Origin: Tetradesmus obliquus
Taxonomy: Eukaryota; Chlorophyta; Chlorophyceae; Sphaeropleales; Scenedesmaceae
Assembly (NCBI GenBank): GCA_030272155.1
Contig: CP126192.1
Coordinates: 7,784,501-7,848,500 of the forward strand
Reading direction: 5' to 3'
DNA: 64,000 bases
Shown here: positions 1-63,579 of the stretch, piece after piece
Numbering within the stretch: position 1 is the stretch's first letter
Layout of the letters: each line of letters begins with the position of its first letter
The notes under the pieces: generated by a model
Told to the model about the DNA's origin: nothing
The model's input: the letters and a program-made list of their open reading frames with translations, nothing else
Databases searched by the model: none
Program-made: the position numbers and the translations under genes

Positions 1-425
1 TGTGGTTTTCCACTTTCATCAGGTCGCGTGCGGGGTTGGCAGCATAGGCAGTGGGGCCGCCCAGGCCTGCGGGCAGCACAGAAGAGAGGGCAATGCAGCA
101 TGATGCGTGTTGTGGTTTTCCACTTTCATTAGATCACGAGCGGGGTTGGCAGCATAGGCAGTGGGACCACCCAGGCCTGCGGAACAGCATAGAAGAGAGG
201 GCAATGCAGCATGATGCTTGTTGTGGTTTTCCAGTTTCATCAGATCGCGTGCTGGGTTGGTTGCACAGGCAGTGGAACCACCCAGGCGTGCGGCGGCACA
301 GCGGAAAATATGCGGCGGAACATGATGCTGGTTGAGTGATGTTGTGGGTTTTCATTTGCGTCAGGTCGCGTGCTGGGTTGGCAGCATAGGCGGTGGGGCC
401 ACCCAGGCCTGTGAAGCAGCACAAC
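1..425 (-). repeat. Four echoes of the aquaglyceroporin NPARD exon 5' edge
   Basis: Four diverged copies, about 110-120 bp apart, each with an acceptor-like CAG followed by codons for GLGGPTAYAANPARDL and then unrelated sequence. None continues into the GPR-type sequence expected after NPARD, so they are read as upstream echoes of an exon beyond the window edge. The copy near 240-300 is the most decayed. Confidence 0.75.
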
Positions 426-3400
426 AAGACGGCATGCTGGTCAGATAGATAGATAGATGGAGGGCTTACACGGTGTGTTCATGCGGCATACGCCACCACA
501 GACACCTGGTAAAATGGGAAGCTGCAAGCAGCACAACAAGACGGCAGGCTGGTCAGGTGCTGTTGTCTGTCGCATTGAGTTGTCCGCAGAACAAGTGGGC
601 TTGCGCACGCCGCTTGTGCAGGCAGGAGCAGCAGCATAGTGCATCAGGGAGACTCACAGCACCAAGATATTGTATGTCAAGCCACATATGCAGCAACCAC
701 ATACTGTACGTCAAGCCACATCTGAACTGTCAGGCTCAGTTCCTTGCCTGCATCCAGCACCACAATGACGCCGCAGATGAGGGAAGAGCTGCAGCACACA
801 AGCATCAACACTGGTGCTGGTACCACGCAGGCCACATATGCTTGCGTCTAAGCCACATGTGTTGCACAAACGTTGCTCACCGGCAATCAGCACCACGACC
901 CCGGCAACATACTGCAGCCCTCATCTTTTCAGGCCCCAGCAACATGTTGAAGACACACAAAAGACAATGCATTGGGTGACTGCTCACCGGCAATCAGCAC
1001 CACGATGACCTGGCAGATGAGGAAGTACTGTATCCCGACCTCGTAGAACAGCTTCACGTCACTGCCCTCAGGGAAGCGGCGCGCCTGCAGCGGCAGCAGC
1101 AGCAGCGGCACAGATCAGCCTTATTAGCAGAGCTTGTGCTGCAAGTAGCAGCGGCACACTGCAGATACAAGCACCAAACCACAGCTCAGCCTTGGGGAGT
1201 TGATAAGCGGCACATACATACCACATTGATGTACATAACAATGATCAATGACAATAACAATAATAACTATAACATTAATAATGATGACAACAACAATAAT
1301 AACTATAACATTAATAATGATGATAAATACAAATGATGATGACAATGACAATAATAATAAGAAGAACAAAAGTAATAACAATAATATTTAGCGATATAAA
1401 GATAATAATAACAGTATTAACAACAACATTGCCGCACCTGCATCTCTATCAGCAGCACCAGCAGCAGCAGCGCCACGGTGCCCATGACCTCCGTGATGAA
1501 GTTGTACAGCGGGGAGTAGATGGCCGGGCGCGTGGCAAAGATGGACAGCTTGGCGTTCTGATCCGCCACCACGGCAGCCTGCACATTGCAGTCAGTTGAG
1601 GGACGCAGCAGGCACGGCAATGCACACGTGTGTTGGTGAGTGAATCACAGGCCGCGTGGCAAAGATGGACAGCTTGGCATTTTGGTCCGCCACCACGGTA
1701 GCCTGCAGATTGTGTTTTGCAGGGCAGCAGGCATTGAGATGCAGATGCTTCAGATTATATTATATTTGCAAAGCGCAGCAGGCACGGCAATGCAGAAACA
1801 GTATATTGGTGAGTAGATGGCCGGGCGCGTGGCAAAGATGGGCAGCTTGGCATTCTGGTCCGCCACCACGGCAGCCTGCAGATTGCAGTTGGTTGAAGGA
1901 CGCAGCAGGCACGGCAATGCAGATGCTGCGTAGTGGGGAGTAGATGGCTCAGCACACGGCAGAGATGATACTTGTGGCGCACTGGTCCACCACCAGTGCA
2001 GCCCGCAGATTTTGTTATTTTTGCAAAGCTCAGCATACACGGCAATGCAGACGCGGTGGTGTGGTGAGTAGATGGCGCGGCGTGTGGCAAAGATGGACAG
2101 CTTGGCATTCTGGTCAGCCACTGCAGCAGCCTGCAGATTGCAGTTGGTTGAAGGACGCAGCAGGCATGGCAATGCAGACGCGGTGGTGTGGTGAGTAGTT
2201 GGTGGGGAGTGTGGCAATGATGGACAGCTTGGCGTTCTGGTCCGCCACCACGGCCGCCTGCAGATTGTATGACATTTGCAAAGCTCAGCATACACGGCAA
2301 TGCAGACGCGGTGGTGTGGTAGGTCGATGGGGGGGCGCACGGCAAAGATGCTCCTTGTGGCGCGCTGGTCCACCACCACTGCAGCCCGCAGATTGATGAT
2401 TGCAAAGCGCAGCACACGGAAACACAGACGCTGTGCTGTGAGTAGATGGCGGGGCGCGTGGCGAAGATGGACAGCTTGGCATTTTTGTCAGCCACCACGG
2501 CAGCCTGCAGACTGTGTTTTGCAAGGCAGCAGGCGTTGCACTGCACATGCTGTGTAGTGGGGAGTAGTTGGCGGGGCGCGTGGCAAAGATGTCAGCTTGG
2601 CCTTCTCGTCCGCCACCACAGCAGCCTGCACATTGCAGCTGGTTGAAGGACGCAGCAAGCGTACAATGCCAACACAGTGTTGTGGTGAGCAAACAGCCAG
2701 GCGTGTGGCAAATATGGACAGCTTGGCATTCTGGTCCGCCACCACGCCGCCGTACGGCAGCCTGCAGATTGCAGTTGGTTGAAGGACGCAGCAGGCATGG
2801 CATTGCAGACGCGGTGTATTGGTGAGTACATGGCCGGGCGCGTGGCAAAGATGGATAGTTTGGCCTTCTCGTCCGCCACCGCGGCAGCCTGAAGCCGGCC
2901 GACCACACAGCAGACAATGCGCAGGGACACAACCATGAATCAATGACATGTGTGATGTGTGATGCGTGATGTGGGTGAGCAATGGAGTGCAAGTGACGCA
3001 TACGAGACGCTGCACGGCACGACATGCCTATGTTCCAGCTCCGGCTTGTTTCTGTTGCACCACAGAACTCTGGCACGCTGGACAGCACGGCGGCACCATG
3101 ACAGGCGCTTGCTGCCCACCGGCCGTGTGCACTTGCATCGGCTGCATCAGGCCAGGCCCCCACATCTGCATCAGGCCAGTCCCCCACATCTGCATCAGGC
3201 CAGGCCCCCACATCTGCATCAGGCCAGGCCCCCACATCTGCATCAGGCCAGGCCCCCACATCTGCATCAGGCCAGTCCCCCACATCTGCATCAGGCCAGT
3301 CCCCCACATCTGCATCAGGCCAGGCCCCCACATCTGCATCAGGCCAGGCCCCCACATCTGCATCAGGCCAGTCCCCCACATCTGCATCAGGCCAGGCCCC

Positions 3401-10132: not shown

Positions 10133-10169
<37 letters not shown>

Positions 10170-13022: not shown

Positions 13023-13069
<47 letters not shown>

Positions 13070-14065: not shown

Positions 14066-14293
14066 TTACTCCTGCTTGCGCCTGCTGCTGCCTGCACTAG
14101 TCCCTGCAGCTACAGTGCGGCAGCCGCCCCTTGCTGCGCACCAGCCAGCAAGTAACGCATTCATCCCTCGTGCTAGCGCTGCCACAGCCAGTGCTGCAGC
14201 GGCAGCATATACTGCCAGCACATCCAGCAGCAGCACCTGGATCCAGGGCATGTCTTGGCCCTGCGTGTGCAGGAAGCTGCCAGCACCTGCGGA

Positions 14294-14324
<31 letters not shown>

Positions 14325-24599: not shown

Positions 24600-24973
24600 C
24601 AAACTGTCTTACACACAAGGTGCAATGATACACTCAACCCTAGCTGTACAACTGCAGCACACCCTGCAAGGTGCTCCAGCCCCTGCTGCCTGCTGCTGCC
24701 TACACCTTCATACCAAGCACCGCAGCCCAAGCAACCATCTACAGTTCACCGCCCATGCAGCGCAGCGGCACCCTGCGCAGCTCAGCAAGTCACAAGCCGC
24801 AGCCAAGCCACATGCATAGCTGCACTCCACCACTGTCCACTGCCGCAATAACAGCAGACAAGCATGACCGCAGGCATGCGCTGCTACATCGCACCCGTGC
24901 ATGACAGTCGCTAGCAGGTGCCCAAACAAAGTGGAGCCCAGCGGCCGCTGTTTCTCCTGCTGCACATTCACAT

Positions 24974-25165
24974 TCACATCCAGTTGTCGCCCGCCACGCG
25001 CCGCCGGTAAGCATTGCCCGACGGCGCGATAACAGGCTTCTCAGCCGTCTGCGCAGGCTTGCCGGTGAACGCGATGCCTGCTGGGGCCGCCTGGCTGCGC
25101 TGGTTCATTGGGGCAAAGTGGCGCAGCCACACGCCACGGTAGTCCTGCTGCGGCCGCACTCCTGC
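24974..25165 (-). repeat. Echo of the citrate synthase terminal exon, including stop codon
   Basis: Copy of the last ~165 bp of the coding sequence ([15 protein letters not shown] ... [10 protein letters not shown]-stop), 75 bp past the true stop, with few substitutions (AAPAGI for AAAAGI, APSG for ARPG). It lies in the 3' flank. Unlike other echoes it carries a stop rather than a splice site. Confidence 0.9.
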
Positions 25166-36700: not shown

Positions 36701-39700
36701 CAGCGTTCATGGAGCTGTGGTGAGCGCGCATGTTTTATTCAACGTGTTATTTAATGCGAGCTGTGGCTGGTGTGGTGACGCTGGCCTCGCTGCGGCCGGC
36801 AGCCTTCATGGAGCTGCGGTGAGCGCGCTCGTGTTATACAACGTGTTATTCATCGTGAGCTGTGGCTGGCGTGGTGACGCTAGCCTCGCTGCGGCCGGCA
36901 GCGTTCATGGAGCTGTGGTGAGCGCTCGGCGCGTGTGCGTTGCTGGGCGCTTTGCTGCCTTCGTGTTGTGCGACCAGCTGTGCTGTGCGGCTGGCCTCAC
37001 TGCGGCCGGCAGCTTCCATGGAGCTGTGGTGAGCGCGCTCGTGTTACACAACGTGTTATTTATCGTGAGCTGTGGCTGGCGTGGTGACGCTAGCCTTGCT
37101 GCGGCCGGCAGCGTTCATGGAGCTGTGGTGAGCGCGTGGCGCGCGTGCGTTTGCTGGGCGCTTTGCTGCCTATATGTGTTGTGTGACCAGCTGTGCTGTG
37201 CGGCTGGCCTCGCTGCGGCCGGCAGCGTTCGTGGGGCTGTAGTGAGCGCGCGTGTTATTTATCACGTTATTTATCATGAGCTGCGGCTGGCGTGGTGACG
37301 CTTGCCTCGCTGCGCCAGCAGCGTTCATGGAGTCATGGTGAGCGCGCGGCGCGTGTGCGTTGCTGGGCAACTTGCTGCCTATGTGTGTTGCGCGACTAGC
37401 TGTGCTGTGCGGCTGGCCTCACTGCGGCCGGCAGCGTTCATGGAGCTGTGGTGAGCGCGTTTTTTCGTGTGTTGTTTATCGTGAGCTGTGGCTGGCGTGG
37501 TAACGCTAGCCTTGCTGTGGCCGGCAGCGTCCATGCCACGAACTTCATGGAGCTGTGGTGAGCGCGCAGTGTTATTTAACGTGTTATTCTTTGTGAGCTG
37601 TGGCTGGCGTGGTGACGCTAGCCTCGCTGAGATTGGCAGCGTTCATGGAGCTGCGGTGAGCGCGCGGCTTGACATGTTGAATGTAGGGGAATGTAGTTTG
37701 TAGGAGCGCAAACTGTTTTGTGTGTTTTTGATGAAGTCACACGCACTGCAATCAAGTTCCACCTTCACTGTTGCAGGATGACAGTACGTTGTTGTCAGCA
37801 TGTTGATTGTTGCTTGTGCCGCTGCCAGGTGAGATCTGCTGCTCAACATGCTGTCATCAGGGCTGCAGCGGCTGCTGGGCCACCCGCTCATGGCCGGCAT
37901 GTGCTTCAAATACTTTGTTAACACGTTACGTTTTGTTGCTTGTGCCACTGCCAGGTGGGACTCGCTGCTCAACATGCTGTCATCAGGGCTGCAGCGGCTG
38001 CTGGGCCACCCACTCATGGCCAGCACAAGCAGGCTGTTTGGACCTTTGTAACATGTTACTTTCTTTGCTTGTGCCGCTGCCAGGTGGGACCCGCTGCTCA
38101 ACATGCTGTCATCAGGCCTGCAGCGGCTGCTGGGCCACCCGCTCATGGCTGGCATGTGCAGGATTGCACACGAGCTGCAGCGGATGCACACAGACGATTA
38201 TAGGGCCTACACGATGCTGATGCTGCAGGTGCGCTCCTTGTGCTGGTGTAACAGGCTTCTGGCTTGACCCCATCGTCCTTGTAATGTAGTTGACTTGGCT
38301 TAGTAAGCAGGCAGCACTCTGCTGCTGCACAGCATCCTATGCCCCATGCATGCCAGGCCTTTCGAATCCTCTGAGCTGCACAGAAGCTTGCTTCGTGTTT
38401 TGTGCCTCCAGTTGGAACACGCCAGCTCTGGCGGGTGAGCAGCAATGGGTATGCTGCTGGGTGTAAGCATAATGCTTGTTACATCTCGTGTAAAGCAATT
38501 TGTTACATCTCTGTAAAGCAAAGGCATTTGCAAAGTGCAATGCAAGGCCGCCACATACAGAAAAGGATGTCGAGCGACTGCAATAATCGAAGCTCCTGGA
38601 GTCCCGACGCGATGCACATGAAGGATGGTACTGGAGAACGCAGAACAGCTCTGCAGTGGCCCTTGTCATGACGGCTGCTGCTTTTGTGGCCTGCACCCTG
38701 TGCTGCAATGTTGCCTGCCGCAGCGCTCCACGACGCTGCTAGAGGCCATCACTGGCATGACGCTTGCTGTGCGGCTGCTGCTCTTGTGACCTGCACACCT
38801 TTCCGCAACTTAACGAGGATGGTTACATTGCGATGTGTTGCCTGCCCGCAGCGCTTCACAACGCTGCTAGAGGCCACTACTGTCATGCCGCTTGCTGTGC
38901 GGCTGGGCTTGCTGGTGACCTGCAAATCATCATGAACTCCAATCTGCTATACTCTGCTTGCACCTGCAGCGCTCCACGACGCTGCTGGAGGCCATCACTG
39001 GCATGACGCTTGCTGTGCGGCTGGGCTTGCTCAGCAGCGATGGCCAGCAGCTGGTGGTGCAGCACCTTGCAGGAGCTGGCGGCACAGCAGCAGCAGACGA
39101 AGCAACAGCAGGTCCAGGTAAGGCCATAGGCTGGGAAGTTGCTTGAGTTTCTTTGCAGCTGCTGCTCAGCAGCGATGGCCAGCAGCTGGTGGTGCAGCAC
39201 CTTGCAGGAGCTGGCGGCACAGCAGAAGCAGACGAAGCAACAGCAGGTCCAGGTAAGGCCATAGGCTGGGAAGTTGCTTGAGTTTCTTTGCAGCTGCTGC
39301 TGAGCAGTGTTGTCCAGCAGCTGGTGGTGCAGCACCTTGCAGGAGCTGGCGGCACAGCAGCAGACGAAGCAACAGCAGGTCCAGGTGAGGCGATAGGGAG
39401 AAGCGGTTGGTGTGTTGCTCCTGCCTGCTGCTGCTGCTGAGCAGCCAGTAGCTGCTGGTGCAGCATCCTGCAGGAGCTGGCGGCACTGCAGCAGTAGACG
39501 GTGGTTTGTGTCATGCCCAACACGGAAAAATTGAATCTGATTGGGTGACAGCTGTCGCTGTGGCTGCTGCTTGGGTGGATGCAATGGGTTTGCACTTGTT
39601 AATGGTTACGGCCTGGTGTGAAGTAGACCAGGTGGAAGCTTCCCGCTCTAATAGTTGCCCTGTCACATTGGTCATTGCCGGGGGCCTTTGATTACACTGG

Positions 39701-42700
39701 GAACAGATCACGATACGGACAGATCAACAGCACTTCTTGGCGGCAGCGTATGCCTGCCTCAAACTCACTCCCTGTACGCAGAAAGCAGTCAGGGTTCAAC
39801 ACCAACATGCTCATACAGGCGGCTCAACATCCAACGAATCTTGCCTGCTGTTCATTTGCTGCTGCAGCGTGCGTGCCTGCCGCTGCTGCTGCTGCGCTGC
39901 CTGCTGCAGCCGCAGCTGAGCTGTTGCAGCTCAAGCTGGCTGCGCGGGACACCATCTTTTCCGAGGCCATCACAGCAAATGCAGTACGGCGTGTAGCTGA
40001 CACAAGTCTGTATGGCCAGGTGTGTGTGTGTGTGTGTGTGTGTGTGTTGTGAAACATTTGTAATGTGGCAGTCGTGGTTGCATAACTTGCCACACTCAGC
40101 TGCACTCAAAAAAGTTACAAGTTTCTTGTGTACTGCTCAAGGTTGCACACGTGGCAATACACTTATCTATTAAGCTTTTGCACGGCATGCATTGGATGGA
40201 AGATGGCAGTTTGTTTGTCGCTGCGCAATGCCTCTGCTTGGTCAGATGCCTGCCTTGTTGCTGATGCAGTGCTCTGTGCTGAACTTTGCTTCTGCTGTTC
40301 ACGTCTTTTGATACTTGCAGACGCGGGCACGCCCTGGCGCTGACGTGTTCCTAGGAGGAGATACAGAAGCAAGCCTTGTGGTGGTCCCCTTGCAGCTAGG
40401 TCCTGGGGTGCCTCACAAGGCAGCGTTATATGTGTTACATAACAAGCCGGGCAACTTTGCGACTGCCAAGCGGCCGATCTGCGTGCTGGCGTCCATGCTG
40501 CAGCTGCTGCTGCACAAGCAGCTGCAGGAGGGAGGGCTGCTGACAGGGGTGTGGCGGGATGCTGAAGTGCCGGCGCAGGACTTGCAGGAGGTGAGATTTA
40601 CAGATGGTTGAGGTGTCATGTTGGCTGCTTGCACAGCATGTAACAGGCATGTTGTAACGGAATGGCTCTTATCAGCTGCGTGGAAGCAGGCGAACGACGC
40701 ATCCTACTATAGTTTAAATGGCGGGTTTGTGTGACGTTAGGAGGGAGGGCTGCTGACAGGGGTGTGGCGGGATGCTGAAGTGCCAGCGCAGGATTCGCAG
40801 GAGGTGAGATGCTGTGAGGCGTTTCAGGTGGTTTAGGTATTACCTTGGTTGCATGCGCTGCGGGATGCGGCGGGATGCGCAGATGTTGGCGCATGCTGTG
40901 CAACATGCGCTCTGGTGTGAGGTGTTACAGGTGTCCACGTGCCACATCCACTTTGTGCTTTGCATCTGATGCACATCTGCGTAAGGCAGTGCATCAGCTG
41001 TGGCCTGGTGCTTCTGGGAACCTTTGCATATAACAAGGAGTCGAATGCTGCTCAGTTTGCCGAGTTGCCTTGTGTTGTGCGGGGCGGCACCTGGGGATGG
41101 CCTGCTGCTGTGTGCAGCACAGCTATCTCTCCTTATATGTATATATTATATATTGGTGTCCTCCAATTTCAAAGTAAAGAAAAACAGTAAAGAAAATAGA
41201 AGAGAAGCGTGCTTGCCTGCTTGCGCGTCAAGTATCTGCAGGAGCAGCAGCGCAGTGCGGCCTGCCACAGCAGTGCGCGGCAGCTGCTGTTACGTGCCAC
41301 CTCTCAATGCGTCTTATGTGTGTCTTATCTGCGTGCTGCTGCTGCTGCTGCTGCTGCTGCAGCATGCTGTTGTGGTGCGTGCTCCGCCTGCGGAGCCTGC
41401 GGAGAGGCAGAACTCAGGCACGCATGCATCAGCAAGCAATTCGCAGCCTTCAACAGCATCAGCGCTGGTGCAGGTGCGGCCTGCTGCAGCTTGCCTTTTT
41501 GTAGCACACATTGGGTTCGTTGTGCATGCCAGCCATGCAGCTTTGTCACAGGGCGCTGACGTCGGCCTGAGCATCTGAGATCTGTGTGATTGGTACGCAC
41601 AGCTCATAATGAGGCTCAGAATGAGGCATGCTGGCAGCCATAGTTGACGCCTGTGAGATCAGCACATGTTCGCCTCACCCTATTGCATGCTTTGTGCTGT
41701 AGTTGCATTTGCAAAGTAGCCCAGCTCGCTGCTAGCCCTATTGGACCCTCGGGTACGGTAGGGATGGTAGGAGGCGTGGAGGCGCATGATGTATCCTCAT
41801 CGCCACACACGTCCCCCTCCTTAACTAACGCGCGTGTCAAGTGTGAACACACCACGAATAGTTCGTTCATTCATTCATTCATTCATTCATTCATTCATTC
41901 ATTCATTCATTCATTCATTCATTCATTCATTCATTCATTCATTCATTCATTCATTCATTCATTCATTCATTCATTCGCTGCTAGCCTCACCCCTGTGCTG
42001 CACTGCTTGTGCTGCGGTGTCTGGTTTGCGCTGCAGATGCTGCAGCAGCAGGTGCGCAACAACCTGCAGGCTTCTCAGGTCAAGGTGAGGCCAGTGGCAG
42101 CTGCTGCACTCAGTGTGTATCTGCGCATGCAGGCTTGCGAAGTTGCAGCGGTTGCGGTTGGTGCAGCCCGTCAGCTTTTCGCATTTCATCGGCGCACATG
42201 TAAGGAATGTCACCATGCTCAGCAGTCCATCACACCACAGCAGTGTACTTTGACAAGCAACAGTGCAAGAACAGGCGCTGCACCTTCACCAGCAATGCAC
42301 TTTTGCATGAGTCAAGTAGCTTGCTTGCGAGTTGCCTGATTCTTGCACTTTTCAAACATGCAGTCTAAACACACACGCTTGTCTTGCTTGATGCTGTGGC
42401 CAACGGGGTGTGCTTTTGCTGATGGTGTTGCTGCTGTTGCAGCTCCTACAGGCAGCACGGAAAGGAGGGTACCTGCAAGGTACGCTGCAGCAGCAGCAGC
42501 AGCAGCAGCAGCAGCTTCATGTGCTGGCTGCAGGTGTAGCAACAGCTGTGCCTTGCTGTCATGGTCCACCATCTCAGCCGTAGGTGATGTCCATTCTCAG
42601 CTTTGAAAGCAGCAATTTATCCAGAACCGCCTTCTGCGCCACTGCTGTCTATGCAGCTATTCTTGCCTGTGAGCTGCCTTCCCGCATCTTGTCCTTCGTG

Positions 42701-45700
42701 CTGTCTGTCTCTTTCCGCTCCGCCTCTGACACCTGTTTCTGAGATTATCCTTGCACCTCGCTGGCTGTCTCTGCTGCGCACCCTGCACCCTGCTGTCATT
42801 TCTACCCTTGCATGGCAATATCAGAACTGGAGCTGAAGCGGGTGCTGGGCAAAGGAGGCTTTGGTGAGCAGCAGCAACAGCAGCAGCAGCAGTAATATAG
42901 CAGCGGTCTCACTGGCAGCAGTAGCAGCTGCGACGTTGGCTGCACGAACTTGCAGCTAGGGGATTGGTCGTGGCAGTGCTGCCAGTCACTGTTCTGCAAG
43001 AACTGCTGCTTGCGGCACATCACACAGTGTGATCTACAGCAACAGCAGCTGCTTAGGCGGCGATTTCAGAAACATGTGTTGACAGGTGCATCACAGAACA
43101 TGGATTCAACAGGTGCATGTACTCATGCTGCAAGTGCATCACATCATGTGGCGGTTCAATCTACGTAACGTTAGCCATCTGCCAGCCTAGTCGGTGAAAG
43201 CCCCGATCCCGTAAGGGGGAAGGATGTTATAACATGGGGGTGCTGGAAACATGATCCCAGGCATCCACGGCGCAGCTGCGCACATTATCTTTTGCCTTAA
43301 GTGTATGTCTGTACAGTCGTGACACCAAAGGCCAACGTTGCTGCTGCCTGTGGCTGCGCACGTTTGTCCCATTACCTCTGCAGGCATAGTATATGCTGGA
43401 ACCTGGAAGGGCTGCCCAGCAGCAGTGAAGGTAAGGGGCTTGCTGTATGCAATACAATACAACACAATACACTTACGGGACTGAACCCGCCCCAGGCACC
43501 AGCCCAGCGAGCCGCTACTCAGCTCGTGGGGGGAGATAGTTATGGTACTGTATGCAATGCACAGCAAGCAGGTTGTGGGTGGAGCATGTTTGCACTGGAT
43601 TGCGTCCTCTGACGGGCGTTGCAGCGCAGTGCTGCGCACTTTGACGAAGCAAAATAACACACATGGGTGCTGCCCGCATGGCCTGGCTATCTTTTGATGC
43701 TGCTGTTCCCAGAGTGCAACAGGCAACAGGCATTCTTACCGCTCCCTGAACTGCCTGTCATGCTGCGCCATGCGTATGTTGTTGTCGCGTTGCTGCTGCT
43801 GCTGCTGCTGCTGCGCTCAGGTGATGATGGTGCCCAAGCAGCAGCGGCGCGTGATGAAGGGCGCCATGGAGATGGCCGTGCAGGAGTCGCTGAGCCATCC
43901 AAACATCGTGCGGTGCGGCAAACGACTTTCCGCTGGCATGTTAGTTGTTAGATGTCTGCGCAGGAGTCATGGACCCACGCAAACAGTGTCAGGAGCAGCG
44001 GCTCATACGGTGTGGACAGCAGACAGCAGCAGCTCACTGCAGCAGCACCAGCAGTCACCGTTAGTGTGCTGATGGCAGCTGCTGCTGGAAGCAGCTGATG
44101 CAGCAGCAGACACTCCCTGCTCTCTCTGAACCACGTGTTGTTTGGCTGTAAGAGTGCTTGTGCTGTTCGACAGATGCTTCCACTGCTGTTGTTGGCCAGG
44201 CTCTACACATGACATTCACTTGTATACTAAGAGGCGGGATTTTGATGTTGATGCTGTGGTGGTGGTGCTGCTGCTGCTGCTGCTGCAGGGTGTTTGCGTG
44301 CCTGTTTGACATGGTGGAGGAAGCAGGTGCGCAGCTGGATGCAGTTCAAGTGGTCGAAAAGCAGCAGCAGCAGCAGCAGCAGGCAGACTGCGGTGTGTTG
44401 CCGTGACGCCCTAAGCGCTGCATATGCCTGTGCTGACATGCTGTGTGCGCACCGAGCATTGCTTTGCGCAGCTGCGCTTGCCAGCAGGCTGTGCTAATAC
44501 TAGTTCCATTCCATGCTCGACCATATAGTTCAACATCTGCCGTGGCTGGCCCTTCTGCTGCTGCCGCTGCTGCTGCTGCTGCAGTGTCGGTGGGCAGCAG
44601 CTCAGGCTTTGCGCCGGGCACGCTCATGTTCAACCCTGCCTGGCTGCGGTTCAGGCCGGCCGGCCCAGAAGATATGGAGGCGGGCGCGATCAGCAACATC
44701 ATGGTACGGCATGTTTCTCTTCATGTTTTGTTTCTGGGGGGGTTGTTGAATGCTTATTTTGGCGTTGTTGCTTTATTGAGAGGTGCGCGATCAGCAACAC
44801 CATGGTGCGTGATGTGTTGTACACAGCAGTGTGCCAGCTTGGGCACTGCGGGGTGCGTTTGGTTGTGCGCTGCGCTTCAGGCCGGCCAGCCCAGAAGATG
44901 TGGAGGCGGGCGCGATCAGCAACATCATGGTGTGTGGTGTGTTTGTCTGTTGATTGTTATGTTGTGTGTGTGTTGCGCAGCAGTGTGTGCGTGTGTGCGT
45001 GCGCGCGTGGGTGCGTGCGTGCATGCGTGTGTTGAGCAGCAGTGTGTTGGCCTGTGCAGGGTGCATGTTGGGTTGCGTACTGCGGAAGGTGTGGAGGCGG
45101 GTGCCATCAGCAACATCATGGTGCGCTGCACTCCCAGCTGTGACTGCTATGCATGTTTGGTGAATAGCGTACTGCGTGTTGGCACTGATCATTTCTGCTG
45201 TTTTGTGCGTGGCTGCAGGTGATGGAGTACTGTGAGGGAGGGACGCTGGCCTCCGCTGTGCGCGCGGGACTGTGGCACGAAGTATACATTCATGCGCAAA
45301 CGACACTGATGAAACCTGCTGTTCCATGCATGAATGCAGATAAAGGAGTACTGTGAGGGAGGCACGCTGGCCTCTGGCAGCATCTGGATACAGCCAGGAA
45401 CAACTCATTTATGAGTTTCCCCGTGTCCTCTTTGCTGCCGCAGATAATGGAGTACTGCGAGGGGGGCACACTGGCGTCCGCTGTGCGCGCGGGGCTGGTG
45501 CACAAGACCGAGCACATCAACGGGCGCAACTGCGCCAGCGTGACCATGTGGAAGCTGCTGACGGTGCGTGACAGCCGGTCAAACATCTGGTCAAACATCT
45601 GGTCAAACATCTGGTCAAACCTTTAAAGCATGCTGAGCCTCTCACCAGCAACCATGATAACATGCATGCTGCAGATGTCTTTTGTGCCGGCCACAAGCTG

Positions 45701-47241
45701 CCGGCCAGGCATATATGCGCTGCTGCTCTGCGACTTGCGCTGTTCCACACCTGTGTTAGCGTGACCATGTGGAAGCTGCTGACGGTGCGTGACAGCCGGT
45801 CAAACCTCTGGTCACACATGGTCAAACTTTGAGGCGTGCTGCGCCTCCCGCCAGCAAAACTTGCAGCTTGCGATGCTCCGGGTGCTGTTTTGTGCCGGCC
45901 AGATATGCATGTGCTGCTGCTGAGGGTCTCCTGCTGTTGCATCCATGCAGCCACCCATAACAATTGCTTGTTTCCTTCCTGTTCTCCTGCGTGCTGTGTG
46001 CTGTGCTGGTAGGTGCTGCTGGATGTGGCGCGTAGCCTGGAGCATGTGCACAGGCTGTCGCTGCTGCACTGCGACCTGAAGCCAGCCAACGTGAGCATGT
46101 GCTGTGTTACGTTATGTTATGTATGCTACATCCTTTAAACTGTGTGCGCATGGAAAAGCGGATGAGCTGCTGCCGCGCATTGCGTGTCCCCGGCGCTTGC
46201 ATCGCCAAAGCTTGCACGGCTGCAGAATGGCCTGCTGGTCAGCATTCGCGGCGTGGCTGCAAGCCTTGCTTGCTGCTTGGAAATTTAGTGCAGCTGGCGC
46301 TGCATCAAACAGCTGCAGCTGCCTCCTGCTGCTTGGCGTGCTACGCCTGGACACTCACATGATACAACGAGAGCTTGTGTGTCGTTTAATGTTATAACGT
46401 ATGTTATTTTCTGTGGCTGCCTCAGGTGCTGCTGAAGACCAGCCCTGACAGCTCACTGGGCCTGGTGGCAAAGCTGGCAGATTTTGGGTGAGCCGGCAGC
46501 AGCTTTTATTGTTGTAGTATATTCTTCGTTATCTTATATTCATGAGGCAGCAGCAGCGCACACAGGCACAGCAGCTGCATGTTGGACAGCTGATGACACT
46601 GCTTTGCGAAAGACGGTTGAAGCTTTGGAGTGAAGATATAGTGTCATGTGTGTCCTGGCACTATCAAACCATTAGCTGTGTATGCCTTAGCAGCAGCTGT
46701 GACTGTGTGACCTGCTTTGTCTGCGACCTATGCTTGCCGACCCAACATCAGGTGGCTGTGCCGCCTGTTGCTGCTGCAGTCAAAGCAGGGTTCAGTATAA
46801 CAAACCCCCCTTGCTGTTCTGTCTGGCTTTGTAGAGTCTGCGCGTGTGCGTCTGCGACTGCGTATGCTGATGGGTTCGCTGCTGCTGCTGCTGCTGCTGC
46901 TGCATCACTGTGCAGTCTGGTGAAGATGATGACCAACGACCGCATGTACATCCGCAACAACTCGGTCAGCGGTGAGCCTCGCTGACAGTGCTAGCTGTAG
47001 CAGCTGGCAGCAGCAGCAGCAGCACGTAGCAGCAGCACAAAGGCAGTAGTGCGAGCCGTCAGTACATCAGGTTCACGGCATGGAGAGTTGCATCGATTGG
47101 CAGTTTGACAGGCCTACTGTCATCAAGATCCTGCACAGCCGTCGGTAGTCAGCATGCGCAGGTCAGCACCTGTGGAGCTGCAACAACTGGTGCGCATCCT
47201 TTCGCTGCATCAACGCTGCTTGGACGCTGACATGTGCATCA

Positions 47242-47294
<53 letters not shown>

Positions 47295-47953
47295 AGCAGG
47301 CACCATCACGCACCTTGCGCCGGAGCGCTTTGAGACCGGCAGCCGGCTCACACCCGCAGTGGACATCTACGCGTTTGGTGAGGCAGCCTCTAATGAACGA
47401 TGCGTTTTGTGTTTGGAGTATATCGTGCCGTGCAGTCGTCTCTTCCTGCTCCTTGAGCTGCCGCTTGATGTCCCTGGTGCTCTTGGATCATTACCACTGC
47501 CTGGCCTCAGTGCTGCTGCTGCTGCTCCTGCTGCTGCTGCTGCTGCTGCTGCAGGCATGCTGATGTTTGAGGCCTACACTCGCCACCGGCCCTTTGCCAA
47601 CCTGCACCCAGCAGGCATCCTGCAGGCGTGAGTGCATATGCTCCCAGCTTCACAGCTACAGGCATGCTGCAATAGTAACAGCAATATCAGGCGTGAGTGC
47701 AATGCATTCCAGGTTTACAGCTTGTTGCATGCAGCAATATGATCAGTAATGTATCATATGCTGTCCAGTTGGTACCCAGCAGGCATCCTGCAGGCGTTAG
47801 TCCCTCTGTTTCCCAGCTTTGCAGCTATAGGCATGCAGCGGTAGTAAGCAGTAATGCGGCCCGTGCTGTCCAGTTTCTTTGCTTTAACCTCTGGCGTTGT
47901 CGCAAATGCACGAGCTGCGCAGCTTGCCTCTGCATGCCCCCTGCGCATGCCTC

Positions 47954-47988
<35 letters not shown>

Positions 47989-48061
47989 AGTTTGGGGCAT
48001 GGCAACAGGCCGGAATTGCCCTGGGGCATGACACCAAGCTGGCTCTGTAGTCTCACGGCTA

Positions 48062-48101
<40 letters not shown>

Positions 48102-49129
48102 AGTGTGGCGCGTGGCAGCCGGCCGGAGTTCCCCCCGGGCACGCCGCCCCCCTACCAGGCCCTGGCAGAGGCGTGCTGGGCACAGCAATCGGAGCAGCGG
48201 CCAACAGCCAACATAGTGGTGCAGCAGCTGCAGGTATGTATGTATGTATGCATGGGTGCTTTTGTGTTATCATGCAGCTGCTACATTCTAGGTTGCGAGG
48301 CGCTGGCAGAGGGGTGCTGGGCACAGCAGGCGGAGCAGCGGCCGCCTGCAAGCGTGGTGGTGCAGCAGCTGCAGGTGAGCGTTGCTGTTTGGTGCAGACA
48401 GCTGCTGGCAGTAGGATGGAAGCGCAGTGATGTGTTTGTTTGTGGTTATCTAAGGCAGCTGCACGTATGTATGTATGCTTGCGGGTGTTTGTTCACACGG
48501 CTGCCAACCCACTGCCAGGCCCTGGCAGAGGCGTGCTGGGCGCAGCAATCGGAGCAGCGGCCGCCTGCGAGCGTGGTGGTGCAGCAGCTGCAGGTACGAA
48601 CTTGAATGAAAGGGCACTCATATGGATCTGCTGCTGTATGTGCTTGGTTGCGTACGGGTGTTTACGGCGGCGATGCAGTGGCCGCTACCCAGCGTGGTGG
48701 CGCAGCAGCTGCAGGTGAAAACATGCATTCACATGCATGAGTCCATGTGCAGCAGCTGCTGCTTGTTTGCTTCAGGGTTTGCATGTAGGCACAGCAGCGA
48801 CTGCCACATGCATTTGATCTTCCGCCACTTGCGTTATTTGAATGTAGATTTCTTAAATTTTTTATTTTTTCTAAAAAAAATGCTTACATATTTAATCAAA
48901 AACATAGTTTAAAAATCCAGTTCTAAAAAACAAATATATCTTTTTTTTACAAAAGGTAATAATCAAAGAACCCGAAGACGAGCGACCTAGGCCTGAGCAG
49001 GTTGAAGTTTCACTTCCCTCACACTTTGTCTCAGCTGACTGCTCGGCAACTGTTGTGTGTCTGCGCCTGCAGGACATGCTGGCGCGTACCAACTGCCCAT
49101 CCGTGTTTGCCAAGCGGCACTACGTGTAG
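33709..49129 (+). CDS. Acylated GAF-like/TKL protein kinase, about 866 residues
   Basis: Exons: 33709-34077, 34858-34976, 35278-35470, 36592-36719, 38084-38228, a linker near 38384-38434 (uncertain), 38970-39117, 39916-40019, 40321-40590, 42037-42084, 42443-42479, 42825-42863, 43384-43430, 43821-43912, 44289-44326, 44585-44703, 45444-45563, 46013-46090, 46426-46487, 46916-46971, 47300-47377, 47555-47627, 48104-48233, 49073-49129. The start MGGCLSK (G2, C4) suits myristoylation and palmitoylation, hence membrane attachment. Residues ~120-510 form a GAF-like sensory region (LVVVPLQLG.GVPHKAALYVLHN). The kinase domain has GKGGFG, AAVK, MEYCEGGTL, the catalytic loop HCDLKPAN (Cys replaces the usual Arg, a non-RD kinase), ADFG and APERF. 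The ligand is unknown. All phases agree except around the linker exon. Confidence 0.88.
34436..34800 (+). repeat. Four echoes of kinase exon 2, 5' edge
   Basis: Copies near 34434, 34558, 34646 and 34742 of GCAG + GTGCGTGCGGTGCTGCAGG..TTGTCCTCCATTGC (VRAVLQ.LSSIA), upstream of exon 34858-34976; period about 90-120 bp. Confidence 0.9.
35027..35100 (+). repeat. Echo of kinase exon 2, 3' edge
   Basis: Copy of QAAAVLLR(E/Q)LSECG(A/T)DCVM with donor GTGAGT, 50 bp after the exon. Confidence 0.9.
35595..36590 (+). repeat. About nine echoes of kinase exon 4, 5' edge
   Basis: Copies near 35598, 35641, 35744, 35858, 35990, 36120, 36255, 36365 (partial) and 36465 of GCTTGCAG + GACTGGGCTGTGCTGCACGC (DWAVLHAQHGLS). 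Most keep a good acceptor. Period mostly 110-135 bp. All lie upstream of exon 36592-36719 and none has the exon's second half. Confidence 0.93.
36720..37670 (+). repeat. Nine echoes of kinase exon 4, 3' edge
   Basis: Copies near 36767, 36858, 36974, 37070, 37190, 37280, 37400, 37484 and 37598 of GGTGACGCT.GCCTCGCTGCGG..CAGCGTTCATGG plus donor GTGAGCGC (VVTLASLRPAAFMELW). Two alternating sublengths suggest duplication of a dimer. None has the exon's first half. Confidence 0.93.
37824..38040 (+). repeat. Two echoes of kinase exon 5, 5' edge
   Basis: Copies near 37826 and 37952 of GCCAG + LLNMLSSGLQRLLGHPLMA upstream of exon 38084-38228; period about 127 bp. Confidence 0.9.
38715..38900 (+). 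repeat. Two echoes of kinase exon 38970-39117, 5' edge
   Basis: Copies near 38718 and 38848 of GCAG + CGCT(C/T)CACGACGCTGCT (STTLLEAITGMTLAVRL), upstream of the exon. Confidence 0.85.
39158..39500 (+). repeat. Three echoes of kinase exon 38970-39117, 3' edge
   Basis: Copies near 39161, 39297 and 39425 of LLSSDGQQLVVQHLAGAGG plus donor GTAAGG/GTGAGG; the first two share a ~135-bp unit that also repeats the following intron. Confidence 0.9.
40020..40049 (+). repeat. (GT)n microsatellite at an intron donor
   Basis: About 14 GT repeats begin exactly at the donor of exon 39916-40019, so many alternative GT dinucleotides follow the exon. Confidence 0.9.
40738..40808 (+). repeat. Echo of kinase exon 40321-40590, 3' edge
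   Basis: Copy of EGGLLTGVWRDAEVPAQD..QE with GTGAGA donor, about 150 bp past the exon. Confidence 0.9.
41866..41976 (+). repeat. (TTCA)n microsatellite
   Basis: About 28 perfect tetranucleotide repeats in a kinase intron. No coding role. Confidence 0.97.
44779..45125 (+). repeat. Three echoes of kinase exon 44585-44703, 3' edge
   Basis: Copies near 44779, 44877 and 45083 of GPEDMEAGAISNIM with GTGCGT/GTGTGT donors, downstream of the exon. Confidence 0.85.
45212..45395 (+). repeat. Two echoes of kinase exon 45444-45563, 5' edge
   Basis: Copies near 45218 and 45338 of GCAG + (V/I)MEYCEGGTLAS; the second has lost the Met codon (ATAAAG). Confidence 0.88.
45755..45835 (+). repeat. Echo of kinase exon 45444-45563, 3' edge
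   Basis: Copy of SVTMWKLLT with donor GTGCGT and following intron (GGTCAAAC). A shorter 12-bp repeat (AACATCTGGTCA) occurs three times near 45585-45615. Confidence 0.85.
47680..47805 (+). repeat. Echoes of kinase exon 47555-47627, 3' edge
   Basis: Copies near 47690 (very short) and 47772 of PAGILQA with GTGAGT/GTTAGT, downstream of the exon. Confidence 0.75.
47955..48050 (+). repeat. Echo of kinase exon 48104-48233, 5' edge
   Basis: (CTG)n-CAG followed by a decayed copy of the exon's first ~55 bp (TGGGGCATGGCAACAGGCCGG against the exon), ending in an in-frame stop. Confidence 0.7.
48290..48717 (+). repeat. Three echoes of kinase exon 48104-48233, 3' edge
   Basis: Copies at 48297-48375, 48518-48596 and 48689-48717 of ALAEACWAQQSEQRP..VVQQLQ with donors GTGAGC, GTACGA and GTGAAA. 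The first two are longer and in frame, reading PPASVVVQQLQ rather than PTANIVVQQLQ. Confidence 0.9.
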
Positions 49130-51260: not shown

Positions 51261-51263
51261 CAT

Positions 51264-53248: not shown

Positions 53249-53313
53249 TCAGGTGCCTTCCAAAGCTTGTGTGTGCATCATGCAGCAAGGCTGTACTGAT
53301 GCATGTATCACCA

Positions 53314-53400
53314 CCGGTACCGTCACTGTGAGCTGACCCCCCCCCCCCCCCCACCCCCCACCCCCCCACCGGTACCGTCACTGTGAGCTGACCCCCCCTG
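53314..53400. repeat. Duplicated transposon end with poly-C expansion
   Basis: ACCGGTACCGTCACTGTGAG, running on through CTGACC, occurs twice (53314 and 53367) separated by a C-rich run of about 30 bases. It looks like slippage or repair at the terminal inverted repeat of copy 2. Confidence 0.8.
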
Positions 53401-54241: not shown

Positions 54242-54276
<35 letters not shown>

Positions 54277-59528: not shown

Positions 59529-62500
59529 TCAAGCCGCATAGCTCATGCAGGATCCAATGAGGTACAGGTATGTTGCGCTGCACAGCGGCAGCGACACAAT
59601 GCACGCCAGGTACTCCCAGAACAGCAGCGCAGACACCTCGTCTTCACCGTGCCGGTGCACGGACGCCAGCGAGTGCACCAGGATGGCTGGGGTCAGCAGC
59701 AGCAGCAGCAGCAGTCCGCACGTGGGCAGCAGTGCAGGGGTCAGTGCGCTGCCGGCTCAGCCGTGGAAAGCTAGATCTTTTGACAATGCGACAGGCATGT
59801 ATGTAGCACACACTGCTGCCGTCACATGCACCAGCCGCAGCTACGCAGCAAGATATCAGCGTCTACACCCGCACACATAAACATGCATATGCAGCATCAA
59901 CGCCAGGCACACTGTATCATGAGATGCAGTGCAGACCGCAGCGCCGTGCATCCTGCACCTATCACACCACAAGCTAGCACCAACATCTGTGCAACAGCTG
60001 CGCAACAACAGCACCCACCTGTGGGTGTGCTCCACGCCACCATCATCACCACCAGTGCCAGCGGGTCTTGCACATCAATCAGCCCAGAGCCCTGCACGCC
60101 CAGCAACACTTTGGTTAAACAGCAATTTGTGTAAAAAGCAAAGCAAAGAGTGGCTTGGCTACAGCAATGGCATCAGCAGGGTTGGCAGAGACAGCAACAG
60201 TGCTCCAAGACGTTGCTGGCAGCTATTGAAGGCAGGACTCAAAGCAGAATTCACAGCAGGGCAGAGTTGTGCTGGCTGGCCTGCAAAGAATCATTACCTA
60301 CGCGCCCAGCACCACGCCGCAGCCCAGCAGCGGCAGCAGCACCAGCCGCATGGCCACCACAGCAAGCACCGAATGCAGCGGCAGGTGCCCCGGCCCGGGG
60401 CCTGCCGCCAGGTTTGCGCCCAGCACCAGCAGCAGCAGCGGAATGAGCGGCTGCCCCATCATGTCCAGCACATCCCCTGCGATTGATAGCTTGCCTCCAG
60501 GCAGAAACAGCGCGTCCTGCAATGCAAGAGGGGTGCAAGGGGGGACCCAAATAGGACGTCAGGTAAAGCAGCATGCCAGCAGCAGTGCCAGCAGCATGCC
60601 AGCACCAGCAGCAGCAGCGGGATGAGCGGCTGCCCCATCATGTCCAGCACGTCCCCTGCGATTGACAGCTTGCCTCCAGGCAGGAACAGCGCATCCTGCG
60701 GAGCAACAGGGGCGACAAGAGCTTGTTGAGATGTTCAGCAGCAGCAGGATCGGGGGCCGCCAAGCATGTCAAGGACGTCGCCATAAATGGAGAGGAACAG
60801 CGCGTCCTGCAAAGAAGAGAGCATACATATCAGTGCCATGCAAGCCCTGTCAATTCACCCATGTGAGGCACACACCCAGGCGCGCCACGAGTATGCAGAT
60901 TGCATGCTTGGCATGCCGGCCGCCTGCGCCACCAACAGCCAAGCTCACCCGCAGAGGAGGGCAGCTGCCGATGGCAATAGCTGCAAAGTCAGCTATGAGC
61001 GGTGCTGACACCACGCCCTTCAGCAGGGGCGCATATTCTACTGACCACTGCTGCAGCTGTGCCAGCTGCTGCGCCGACAGCACGCCTGCGTCCATTAATC
61101 GCCTGCATAAGCTGATTGCGCTGTCACCACTGCTGTTGCTGCCACTGTTTTCGCCGGCAGCAACAGCAGCCAATTGCCCGCTGCCGCCAACACTGTTTGT
61201 ATTGCTGGGCAGCAGTGGTTTAAGAGCTGCTGCTCATGCTGAGGGGATGGGTGATGCTGCAGCGACTGCCACAGTTGTTCCAACTGCTGCCGCTGCTGCT
61301 GCAGTGACTGAGGAGTGCCTGTTGCTTGTGAGGGGGGGCAGCACTGCTGTAATACCTACTGAGGACAGGCTGGCTGCTGCTTCACGAGCTACTGGTAAGT
61401 GTGACTCTGCTGTTGCTGCTGCTACAAATGGCGGTTTGCCACTGCTGAGCAGTGGTACTGTTGATACTGATGCTGCTGTATTTGCTGCTGTTGCCAGGGC
61501 TAGTGGCGCTGCTGCTGCTGCTGCTGCTGCTGTGGTAGGTTGGGGACAAGCCATGTTCATTTCTGCGGCAACTGCGGCGATAGTCACAGTCATTGTTGCT
61601 GCTTCACTGCTGCTGCTGCTGCTGGCTGCCAGTGGTGCTGCTGTCGGCTGGCTGTCCTTGTGCAGCAGCCAGTGACCTGCAGCTCAGTAAGGCAAGCAAC
61701 ACAGTTAACCTCAACTCACACAGCAAATGACATGGAACAGAACGTGCTGTGTCAGCATCAGCGGGTGCACAGCAGACAGTGCCTGATTGGCAACTTGACA
61801 TAAGAAGTCAGCTGTGCAAAACACTCCTGCAAGGCAAATATAGTAAGTACTGCTGCACCACAATACAAGCCAGCTCACCCAGCGGCATCTGCACCATGGT
61901 AGCTTATATCCAAACCAGCATCACAAAGACTGCACAGCAGAACAGTAGTGGAGGAAGCAGTGTCACTTACCCAGTGGCATCTGCACCATGGTCGCGTAGA
62001 ACCAGCCCAGCATGACATAGCTGACCGCCAGCTCAGCCTCACTTACTCAGTAACATCAAACACATCAGAGAATTGTCCACTTCATGTCACTCACCTAATG
62101 GCATCTGCACCATGGTGGCGTAGAACCAGCACAGCATGACATAACTGACCGCCAGCTCAGCCTCAGCAGCCGTATTGAACGGCAGGTTGGGGTTTTTCAC
62201 AAATGACATGACCATGACCAGCGGCAGGTTGCCGGTGTTGCTGATGGCAGTTGACACACGGATGATGTTGACTAGGCGCTCCGGCGTGGGCAGCAGTTTC
62301 GTGTGCACCCAGCCGAGAAACAGACCCGTGAGGTGGCTGTGTAAGGGAGGGCGGCGGCGGTGCAGCAGCTGTTAAGATCACACATTGTTGCAGGTTGTAC
62401 TGCTGCTGCCGCTGCCGCGCTGGCAGCAAGAGCCATGGCTGCAGCAAAAGCATGTCTGTGTGCAGCTTGTCAGCCAAGTGGCAGCATATGTCATGTACAA

Positions 62501-63579
62501 GCGCAGATATGCTGTCCTGCAAGTGCAGCGGCGCCTCAGGTGTGGACCTTAGCCCTGGTGGAAGTTGGCCACTGCTGCTTCCTAAAACCTGATCCTGACA
62601 GCTCCACGCCACAACAACAGAACCTTCAGCGCTGCTGACACCGGCACAAAAGGACTGTCACTTACGCGAGGATGACGTTGGCGCCGATGGGCCACAGCGC
62701 CAGCGCCTGACCCGCGTCGATGTGCAGCCCCAGCTTGCTGACCATGAGCGCTGGCGTGAACACGTCGATGGCCAGCCGCGACAGCGAGCGGCGCGCCTGC
62801 ACGTCAATCAGGCCCTGGTGCAGCAGCAGAGACAGCAGCGGCATTGGCAGCACGGAACTTTACCAGTTGGTTGATGGCCAGCCGCGACAGGGAGCGCGCG
62901 CCTGCACATCAATGAGGGCCTGCAGGAAGGTGGTGCGGCGGCGACAGCAGCATTGGCATGAGCATGTTGTGGATGCAGGCTGAAGGCTGGCATGCCCTGC
63001 AGGTTTGACTGGACAAGCGGCAAAGCAGCGGTGGTTGTGGCTGGTCTAGTGATGCTGTGGAGATTGCGCTGCTTGCCCAGACACACCTACAGGCACACTG
63101 AACTCGAGCCTGCGTTGCATTGTATGAACAGCTGCTGTTGGTTATGTTGCGTATCTGCTGCTCACAGCGCACAGTGCATGCGCGTTGGGTGTGAGACTGG
63201 AAGCGCTCCATCATGGCATACACAACATGCTGGCTGCTGTGCATGCTGCCCACAGCAGACGCCCCACCTGCTTGGCACACAGCGCGCCAACACTGCAGCA
63301 CAGCACTATCTTGATGATGGGCACAGATGAGTCTGCCAGCAGCTGTTCTGCTCCGCCAGGCAGCAACACATTTGCTTGTACGGTTCTGCCGCGCTGCCGC
63401 CGTAGCTGCTGCCGTTGCGGTACATGTTTGGTATGAAAACATCCCGAGTATCGTGCTGCTGCTGTTGGCCAGGCCCCTTTATGAATTGCCAGACCAACAG
63501 GCTTTCTGATGCGTGTTGCATGCACTGCTGCCAGCAGGCACAGCTGGCTCTGACAGCCATGCGCTGGCAGCAGCTGCAT
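59529..63579 (-). CDS. Auxin-efflux-carrier-family (PILS/PIN-like) membrane transporter
   Basis: Likely ER or plasma-membrane carrier for auxin-like or other organic anions, by family. Exons: 63579-63268, 62814-62666, 62336-62095, 61676 to about 60949 (central loop; an in-frame TGA at 61236 shows an unresolved intron), 60516-60302, 60091-60019, 59686-59529. Motifs: FTPALMVSKLG in the second helix, AISNTGNLPLVMV (family NTGNLP signature), a Ser/Ala-rich central loop, GQPLIPLLLLVLGANL, and DEVSALLFWEYLACI near the C-terminus. The stop is after CMSYAA. Phase between exons 60516-60302 and 60091-60019 does not match with the junctions I chose, so one boundary is wrong. The start is an in-frame ATG with a basic N-terminus and could lie further in. 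Confidence 0.8.
60600..60815 (-). repeat. Two echoes of transporter exon 60516-60302, 5' edge
   Basis: Copies at 60605-60697 and 60755-60808 of GCAG + DALFLPGGKLSIAGDVLDMMGQ, upstream of the exon. The first also copies the following LIPLLLLVL codons. Confidence 0.85.
61870..62060 (-). repeat. Echoes of transporter exon 62336-62095, 3' edge
   Basis: Copies at 61968-62040 (AVSYVMLGWFYATMVQMPLG-like) and 61875-61905 (short), each with GTAAG/GTGAG donor, downstream of the exon. Confidence 0.85.
62858..62928 (-). repeat. Echo of transporter exon 62814-62666, 5' edge
   Basis: Copy of GCAG + LIDVQARSLSRLAIN region, with two small deletions, upstream of the exon. Confidence 0.8.

Follow-up and report, generated by a model that had tools for sequence, protein, structure and literature searches.

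The stretch analysed here, called the window throughout, is 64,000 nucleotides long (G000:C2:7784501-7848500) and comes from the genome of the green alga Tetradesmus obliquus, taken as an assembly of 104.66 Mb in 17 contigs. Several of its genes carry, inside their introns, partial copies of the edges of their own exons, and these copies, which we call echoes, are the subject of this report. For counting, an echo was defined as a copy that includes the edge and lies on the expected side of it at a distance of at most 700 nt. Five genes of the window were counted: a citrate synthase gene (CS, 16 echoes), a gene whose last part encodes a protein kinase domain (KIN, 29), a Mem_trans (PIN-like) gene (PIN, 3), and the genes UDPGT (4) and CH (20), the last two having weak exon models. 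The GC content is about 55% in the window as compared to 57-59% in four random blocks of the genome; for the species, a table in PMC5966456 lists 57% GC, a mean intron of 462 bp and 7.8 introns per gene. Long introns and a CAG-rich sequence in the window would fit an alga of the Scenedesmaceae type.

Judged on its sequence, CS is the best-supported gene of the window. Its exon lengths total 1560 nt, giving 519 aa. A draft model that still contained echo pieces matches PDB citrate synthases in three stretches, with 9x0i ('Citrate synthase 3, peroxisomal', E 3e-149) as the best match; it was the alignment to 9x0i that separated real exon from echo, and the E-value belongs to the draft and not to the final model. 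The C-terminal piece also has a Pfam PF00285 match. The acceptor-side copies in CS consist of the last intron nucleotides, the AG and the first 30-100 nt of the exon, and lie in the upstream intron, while the donor-side copies consist of the last 30-100 nt of the exon and the GT, and lie in the downstream intron. Of the nine acceptor and nine donor edges, 6 and 5, respectively, have such copies, so that 7 of the 10 exons have one or the other. The features of this gene are as follows.

25240..31211, minus strand: citrate synthase gene with 10 exons in an uninterrupted open reading frame (31026-31211, 30793-30887, 30250-30402, 29076-29307, 28805-28886, 28192-28339, 27325-27461, 26672-26823, 26076-26206, 25240-25483)
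29980..30191, minus strand: two donor-side echoes of exon 3 (exon end and GTGAG)
29446..29584, minus strand: acceptor-side echo of exon 4 (92%, 139 nt)
28431..28467, minus strand: acceptor-side echo of exon 6, comprising 37 nt of the exon and no longer an AG
27745..28137, minus strand: four donor-side echoes of exon 6, some ending before the donor
27522..27700, minus strand: two acceptor-side echoes of exon 7, their spacers (about 60 nt) unlike each other
27213..27266, minus strand: donor-side echo of exon 7
26896..27114, minus strand: two acceptor-side echoes of exon 8
26542..26610, minus strand: donor-side echo of exon 8
26259..26328, minus strand: acceptor-side echo of exon 9
25918..26012, minus strand: donor-side echo of exon 9 (95%, 95 nt)
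25673..25755, minus strand: acceptor-side echo of exon 10
24956..25158, minus strand: copy of the end of the last exon that crosses the stop codon and continues in the 3′ flank, with no splice site (92% over 207 nt)

The last of these was aligned by hand; the ad hoc CS model had taken the copy as an exon, which hid it. It is a single case, and fits a unit set by the end of coding constraint better than one set by the splice site. The KIN gene, whose kinase part matches PF07714 (1.4e-41) and PF00069 (4.7e-38), has an exon set partly derived from an ad hoc gene finder.

33709..49129, plus strand: KIN gene
34430..34782, plus strand: acceptor-side echoes of exon 34858-34979
35027..35096, plus strand: donor-side echo of exon 34858-34979
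35618..36523, plus strand: acceptor-side echo array of exon 36592-36719
36765..37665, plus strand: donor-side echo array of nine units of exon 36592-36719
37810..38033, plus strand: two acceptor-side echoes of exon 38084-38228
38720..39445, plus strand: acceptor- and donor-side echoes around exon 38970-39117
40739..40810, plus strand: donor-side echo of exon 40321-40590
44774..45827, plus strand: donor-side echoes of exon 44585-44703 and echoes on both sides of the kinase-domain exon 45444-45563
47774..47855, plus strand: donor-side echo of kinase exon 47555-47627
47955..48716, plus strand: acceptor- and donor-side echoes of kinase exon 48104-48233

The nine donor-side units behind exon 36592-36719 form the largest array. 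They contain two unrelated spacer types that mostly alternate. A near-perfect TTCA tetranucleotide repeat of 29 copies also lies at 41862-41976 of the window, within an intron of the KIN model. The PIN gene and its echoes are listed below.

59529..62844, minus strand: Mem_trans (PIN-like) gene (PF03547, 4.1e-32), the middle of its exon model being uncertain
61874-62041, minus strand: donor-side echoes of PIN
60599-60819, minus strand: acceptor-side echoes of PIN
62870..62958, minus strand: copy of the first PIN exon, 5′ of the start codon (77%)

This PIN copy and the CS stop-codon copy are the two copies without a splice site; a test of gene ends over 18 ad hoc first and last exons returned the PIN copy as its only case. 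The sequence-only reading had put the pattern in at least six genes. The sixth lies at 57.9-58.1 kb, where units of about 50-56 bp (57942-58135, minus strand, identified by eye) each have an acceptor and, after it, just about 8 nt of exon; it is an echo-like array with a much shorter unit.

For CS, KIN and PIN, each exon with 60 nt on either side was compared with its own gene region by blastn. Those copies that reach an edge hold the acceptor and exon start when upstream, and the exon end and donor when downstream; some copies end a few nucleotides before the edge. The exceptions to the side rule in this list are short repeat-like matches of CS exon 5 and KIN exons 8 and 10, that of KIN exon 10 sitting on the wrong side.

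A larger sample of 272 exons combined those of the window with exons of four 50-kb blocks and of five CCT genes whose places were located by Pfam PF00118 and whose exon limits are gene-finder output. The self-trained gene finder ran away on whole blocks and was trusted only for single genes of known strand. It may be noted that CS, the kinase domain and portions of the CCT and Mem_trans genes are the only places where the exon models are not ad hoc, and that the calls in the random blocks are weak, with many doubtful. The 402 candidate exons were reduced to 301 by removing opposite-strand overlaps and low complexity, and to 272 by dropping shorter look-alikes of a longer neighbour as likely echoes called exons. 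Two subsets are used below, namely a conserved set for the edge count (CS and the five CCT genes) and a homology-supported set of eight gene spans with 127 echoes (CS, the five CCT genes, KIN and PIN).

Upstream copies were found at 66 of the 266 acceptor edges and downstream copies at 64 of the 268 donor edges, i.e., 130 edges bear echoes. Copies on the wrong side occurred at 1 of 266 acceptor and 1 of 268 donor edges. Two controls were used. Flanks of unrelated exons gave echoes at 0 of 798 acceptor and 0 of 804 donor comparisons, whereas with reverse-complement flanks there was 1 acceptor-type and 0 donor-type match. The challenge that echoes might be no more frequent than in shuffled introns, put here through these two kinds of flank, was withstood, and the pattern is real. 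As to its reach, echoes accompany 33 of 60 acceptor edges in the conserved set, and 29 of its 62 donor edges. KIN has them at 5 of 22 acceptor and 8 of 22 donor edges, PIN at 1 of 5 of each type (6 of 27 and 9 of 27 for the two pooled), UDPGT at 2 of 5 acceptor and 1 of 5 donor edges and CH at 3 of 7 of each, while the random blocks, with their ad hoc exon calls, give 9-23% per edge type. The earlier statement that most exons are affected therefore holds per exon for CS and most CCT genes, where about half the edges bear echoes, and fails for KIN, PIN and the random blocks. Taking a unit as its exon part plus 60 nt, echo units occupy 8-39% of each of the eight homology-supported gene spans. 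Also, the copies of an array are related, so that echo counts are not independent.

Successive edges within the series are spaced at a median of 121 nt (quartiles 113-133; 195 spacings below 170 nt, larger ones being left out as likely multiples). The length of the exon part and that of the spacer are anticorrelated (r=-0.68), so that it is the length of the unit that is the constant quantity. Duplication with fresh filler is disfavoured by this constant total length. There is no bias to multiples of three, 61 of the 195 spacings being divisible by 3. The copied part amounts to about 0.39-0.45 of the exon for exons shorter than 200 nt, and the parts copied from the two sides tend to meet near the exon middle (29 exons; the gap averages 9 nt with an sd of 28); this tiling is a weak signal only, 148 of 5000 shuffles being as tight. 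Just 1 of 247 copies covers at least 95% of its exon. Strong partner splice sites were found at 1-5% of the inner ends of echoes, as compared to 6-13% of random windows and 71-87% of real exons. The eight spans contain 127 local repeat pairs with an offset of 70-180 nt: 109 echoes, 8 pairs that overlap exons and 10 confined to intron or flank; on reading, several of these ten turned out to be pieces of echo arrays or shorter minisatellites.

The units are centred near the splice junction, and the likeness drops there. In gapped alignments anchored at the junction the identity is 0.91-0.93 over the first 20 exon nucleotides, and beyond 6 nt of intron it is 0.66-0.71, where unrelated junctions give 0.58-0.63. 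Likeness of the spacer can be detected in 100 of 247 echoes and not in the other 147, and the identity of the exon part hardly follows it (0.910 with an alike spacer, 0.901 without). Among the 68 junctions with at least 3 copies, 27 have at least 3 unlike spacer families. Two CS spacers searched by DNA in the 104.7 Mb gave one site each, in a search that skips very common words. A source paralogue was looked for at the DNA level with two exon queries and one KIN query, which matched only their own locus with its echoes, and a paralogue as the source was set aside on these queries.

The differences between echoes and exons are arranged by codon. Counted over 232 of the 247 echoes (15 without a usable frame were excluded), the mismatch to the real exon is 5.6, 5.1 and 17.9% at 1st, 2nd and 3rd positions, and between echoes it is 7.0, 6.9 and 18.6%; in the homology-supported set the values against the exon are 4.3, 4.3 and 17.5%. 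Three-way comparison of the real exon with two echoes at 45 junctions (one echo pair per junction, bootstrap over junctions) yields branch lengths at 3rd positions of 0.087 (real exon) and 0.084 (each echo), and at 1st+2nd positions of 0.010 and 0.031, respectively. The ratio of 1st+2nd to 3rd positions is thus 0.12 (0.06-0.20) for the real exon and 0.37 (0.28-0.50) for an echo. Base composition and CpG, with calibration on the spacers that can be aligned, predict a neutral ratio of 1.03, so the echo lineages appear to have spent most of their branch under coding constraint. As causes of the codon pattern, CpG and base composition are rejected, and so is saturation of 3rd positions (0.175 against 0.39). 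By arithmetic from the branch ratios, echoes would have been unconstrained for roughly 28% of the branch. The 3rd-position mismatches are clustered, with 144 adjacent pairs in 177 echoes as compared to 102 ± 8 on permutation (0 of 2000). The clustering, BLOSUM (27 skipped) and three-way branch analyses used echoes whose exon part aligns without gaps.

That the echoes have recently been silent is borne out by three features of their sequence. Replacements are non-conservative (BLOSUM62 mean -0.70 versus -0.48 for random), stops are present (3 against 6.4 expected), and the splice dinucleotides decay neutrally: AG is kept in 98 of 110 (0.891) and GT in 110 of 122 (0.902), where 0.891 and 0.899 are expected without selection from the 1st+2nd positions. 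Over all echoes the dinucleotide is kept by 105 of 117 on the acceptor and 118 of 130 on the donor side. The rule that upstream copies always carry an acceptor and downstream copies a donor hence keeps its sidedness and loses its 'always', about 10% of echoes having lost GT or AG and two copies having no splice site at all.

We read the echoes, at about even confidence, as exon edges that once functioned and were then retired, lying in arrays that recombine and in which the constrained exon is the master copy. In this scheme units of about 120 bp, each spanning a single exon edge, were duplicated in tandem, as the anatomy described above shows. As their geometry suggests, the only duplications to survive would be those that break once within the exon and once within the intron, where splicing at the outermost site, in the copy adjoining the rest of the exon, restores the old mRNA. 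The true exon would then be last in the upstream and first in the downstream series, with no whole exon copied, because only such duplications preserve the mRNA. Sequence would continue to pass between the copies and the functional exon, or alleles of that exon, on sister or homologous chromosomes. Gene conversion or unequal crossing-over would bring this about within the exon part, the only portion that remains homologous. The functional exon would be the sole constrained copy and hence the master, with selection acting at the functional place, and spacers, which have no master, would drift past recognition. A present echo would be a retired functional edge, silent for roughly a quarter of the divergence time and without kept function.

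The edges seem to have been exchanged and retired because copies dead from birth cannot show divergence under coding constraint, and exchange within the arrays is the simplest account since several edges of one gene were functional without a visible paralogue. Exchange would also account for the sharp border at the junction, the unlike spacers, the scarcity of intron-only arrays, the clustered 3rd-position mismatches and the lack of another source. We infer support for it from repeats that are more alike than their flanks and age would allow, and from a 3rd-position divergence that is nearly independent of the spacer: in echo-echo pairs it is 0.185 with an alike spacer and 0.175 without, and the link to spacer likeness is weak, though not absent (Spearman -0.18 over 232 echoes). 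The idea of a running process is thereby borne out in part, as the divergence arose mostly under coding constraint; the two-sided order itself needs no special process, because surviving tandem duplications that straddle a junction must show it.

Several points weigh against this exchange-and-retirement scheme. Steady exchange or allelic coalescence should spread the 3rd-position divergence wider than is seen, and over the 127 homology-supported echoes it fits one level (0.175, chi2/df 1.20), the 1st+2nd positions of the same echoes being overdispersed (chi2/df 1.77). Strong exchange should also lower this divergence, and 17% is high. In the homology-supported set the 1st+2nd mismatch rises from about 2.4% beside fully alike spacers to about 5% beside the others, a difference that simple ageing would produce. 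The departure from plain neutrality is milder in echoes with alignable spacers, at 13.8% in the spacer, 17.0% at 3rd and 4.2% at 1st+2nd positions, where dead copies would be expected to show 13.8% and 6.9%. The clustering of mismatches can also stem from uneven synonymous constraint, and the first 10 nt differ less (0.12 versus 0.19). The unit length of about 120 bp is not accounted for. Exchange itself is inferred from one assembly.

The uniform 3rd-position divergence fits a single level better, and so keeps alive a variant in which fragments were joined in one period from at least two diverged lineages (a hybrid or diverse alleles), each echo having formerly been functional elsewhere. We regard it as unlikely. 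It would explain why the divergence is near 17% over genes and series orders, with CCT9 lower (0.089), why change is coding-like on both branches, and why spacers and splice flanks have diverged like those of orthologues, and it overlaps with the retirement of exchanged edges. Against it, there are more than 2 spacer families at 27 of the 68 junctions with at least 3 copies, so two parents are insufficient and a two-parent hybrid alone is ruled out. Also, the spacers are in our judgement too different for a synonymous distance of about 10%, and no second haplotype was seen in the one assembly.

Slightly less credible to us is that ordinary random tandem duplications survived when they straddled an exon edge, the copies being dead from birth and neutral with no exchange. 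The side rule, the half-exon limit and the anticorrelation of exon part and spacer all follow from this, and the neutral decay of GT/AG, the non-conservative replacements (-0.70 versus -0.48) and the lower 1st+2nd mismatch beside alike spacers agree with it. However, dead copies permit a ratio of 3rd to 1st+2nd positions of at most 2 against the exon and no excess between echoes, where 17.9% against 5.6% and 5.1% is observed, and the ratio on the echo branch should be about 1 in place of 0.37. Random placement should also make intron-only arrays at least as common as those on edges (a rough estimate from intron lengths), and 10 of 127 repeat pairs were of this kind. The spacer should match the exon part in likeness, which it mostly does not.

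We consider it improbable, to a degree just beyond the last, that copying was aimed at splice junctions with about 60 nt on each side, e.g., by pre-mRNA-templated repair or breaks at junctions. The arrays sit almost only on exon edges, the units are centred near the junction and the similarity ends close to it, all as such copying would have it. Yet the stop-codon copy and the copy 5′ of the start codon have no splice site, the copied part scales with exon length (0.39-0.45 in exons below 200 nt) instead of keeping a fixed footprint, and the coding-like divergence of the echo lineages is left unexplained.

The sequence-only reading had further proposed a buffer of decoy splice sites. That decoys are kept by selection, for instance by holding U1/U2 or tuning splicing, is in our estimate very unlikely. 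The intron-side consensus of echoes with an intact dinucleotide is far above background and near that of real sites (donor 1.80 against 2.04, acceptor 2.51 against 2.90). But GT/AG is lost at the rate of 1st+2nd codon positions, the kept fractions of 0.891 and 0.902 falling on the 0.891 and 0.899 expected without selection, and selection on splice sites would not yield a codon-phased pattern. To true alternative exons, which the codon-like divergence might suggest, or an assembly artefact, for which the narrow unit length could point to an assembler parameter, we give next to no credence, as the inner ends lack a partner splice site and the period has no bias to multiples of three (61 of 195), and as up to 9 mutually different units per edge with unlike spacers in a 17-contig assembly are, judged from the assembly, unlike overlap artefacts.

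If edges are exchanged and retired in this manner, then exon edges turn over, the junction now used being the current holder of a post that array copies held earlier; this we hold tentatively, at somewhat below even confidence. If true, recombination would renew splice sites, synonymous sites and the neighbouring intron while the protein stays unchanged, and introns here would grow in good part from the retired edges of their own exons. This would be a new source of intron sequence, together with a replacement of splice sites without protein change. It is also a puzzle how the spliceosome gets past a series of near-perfect acceptors or donors and settles on the correct one, for which the 130 edges are natural test cases. 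Gene annotation in such genomes will probably mistake echoes for exons, an error that the simple gene finder made here.

Other features were also encountered. At 51266-52699 and 53326-55201 of the window lie related copies of an element (about 87% over 1.25 kb) with inverted ends and the start CTGTGAGCTGACCCCCC. A genome search with 149 bases of one end gave 42 matches, and the element looks like a non-autonomous DNA transposon with terminal inverted repeats. A 24-bp minisatellite of 53 copies (99% matches) at 3142-4418 is open in several frames on both strands, and the simple gene finder called it coding. Elsewhere in the genome, a proteasome-subunit gene at G000:C4:1127951-1128499 matches positions 3-189 of the 189 of its Pfam family in one open frame, and is possibly a retrocopy; the proteasome family search gave few, short matches, and the others cover the family only partly.

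A literature search, with limited coverage of subscription journals and preprints, returned no description of half-exon arrays, and we compare the echoes with four known systems. Tandem exon duplication, including mutually exclusive exons, copies whole exons with both splice sites. The repeated exon sequence adjoining the exon is shared with the echoes, which are in contrast half exons, with 1 of 247 copies reaching at least 95% and inner ends without sites. Minisatellites under concerted evolution have tandem units of about 100 bp, higher-order units and homogenised repeats. The echoes also form head-to-tail units of constant length (median 121 bp, recovered as arrays by the tandem repeat finder TRF) of the same order, with higher-order pairs of about 210 bp in KIN. 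Unlike minisatellites, the whole unit is not repeated, as the spacer is alike in 100 of 247 echoes only; mostly it is the coding half that stays alike, spacers differ within an array, and the array is anchored to an exon.

Introners (PMC9860276) likewise change introns systematically over a whole genome, but are dispersed copies of one element; of the many spacers here, the two tested from CS are single-site, with no dispersal over unrelated genes. Closest among the published ideas encountered is the gain of introns by tandem genomic duplication, the AGGT model, in which a unit with both splice sites becomes a new intron (PMC3443670). No unit supplying both donor and acceptor was found here, the inner ends having no partner site, although AGGT was not itself counted. 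The two processes share a tandem duplication by or in an exon which is tolerated as splicing can restore the mRNA, and they differ in that the units described here carry one splice site each, lie inside an existing intron without making a new one, and form arrays that are frequent and two-sided.

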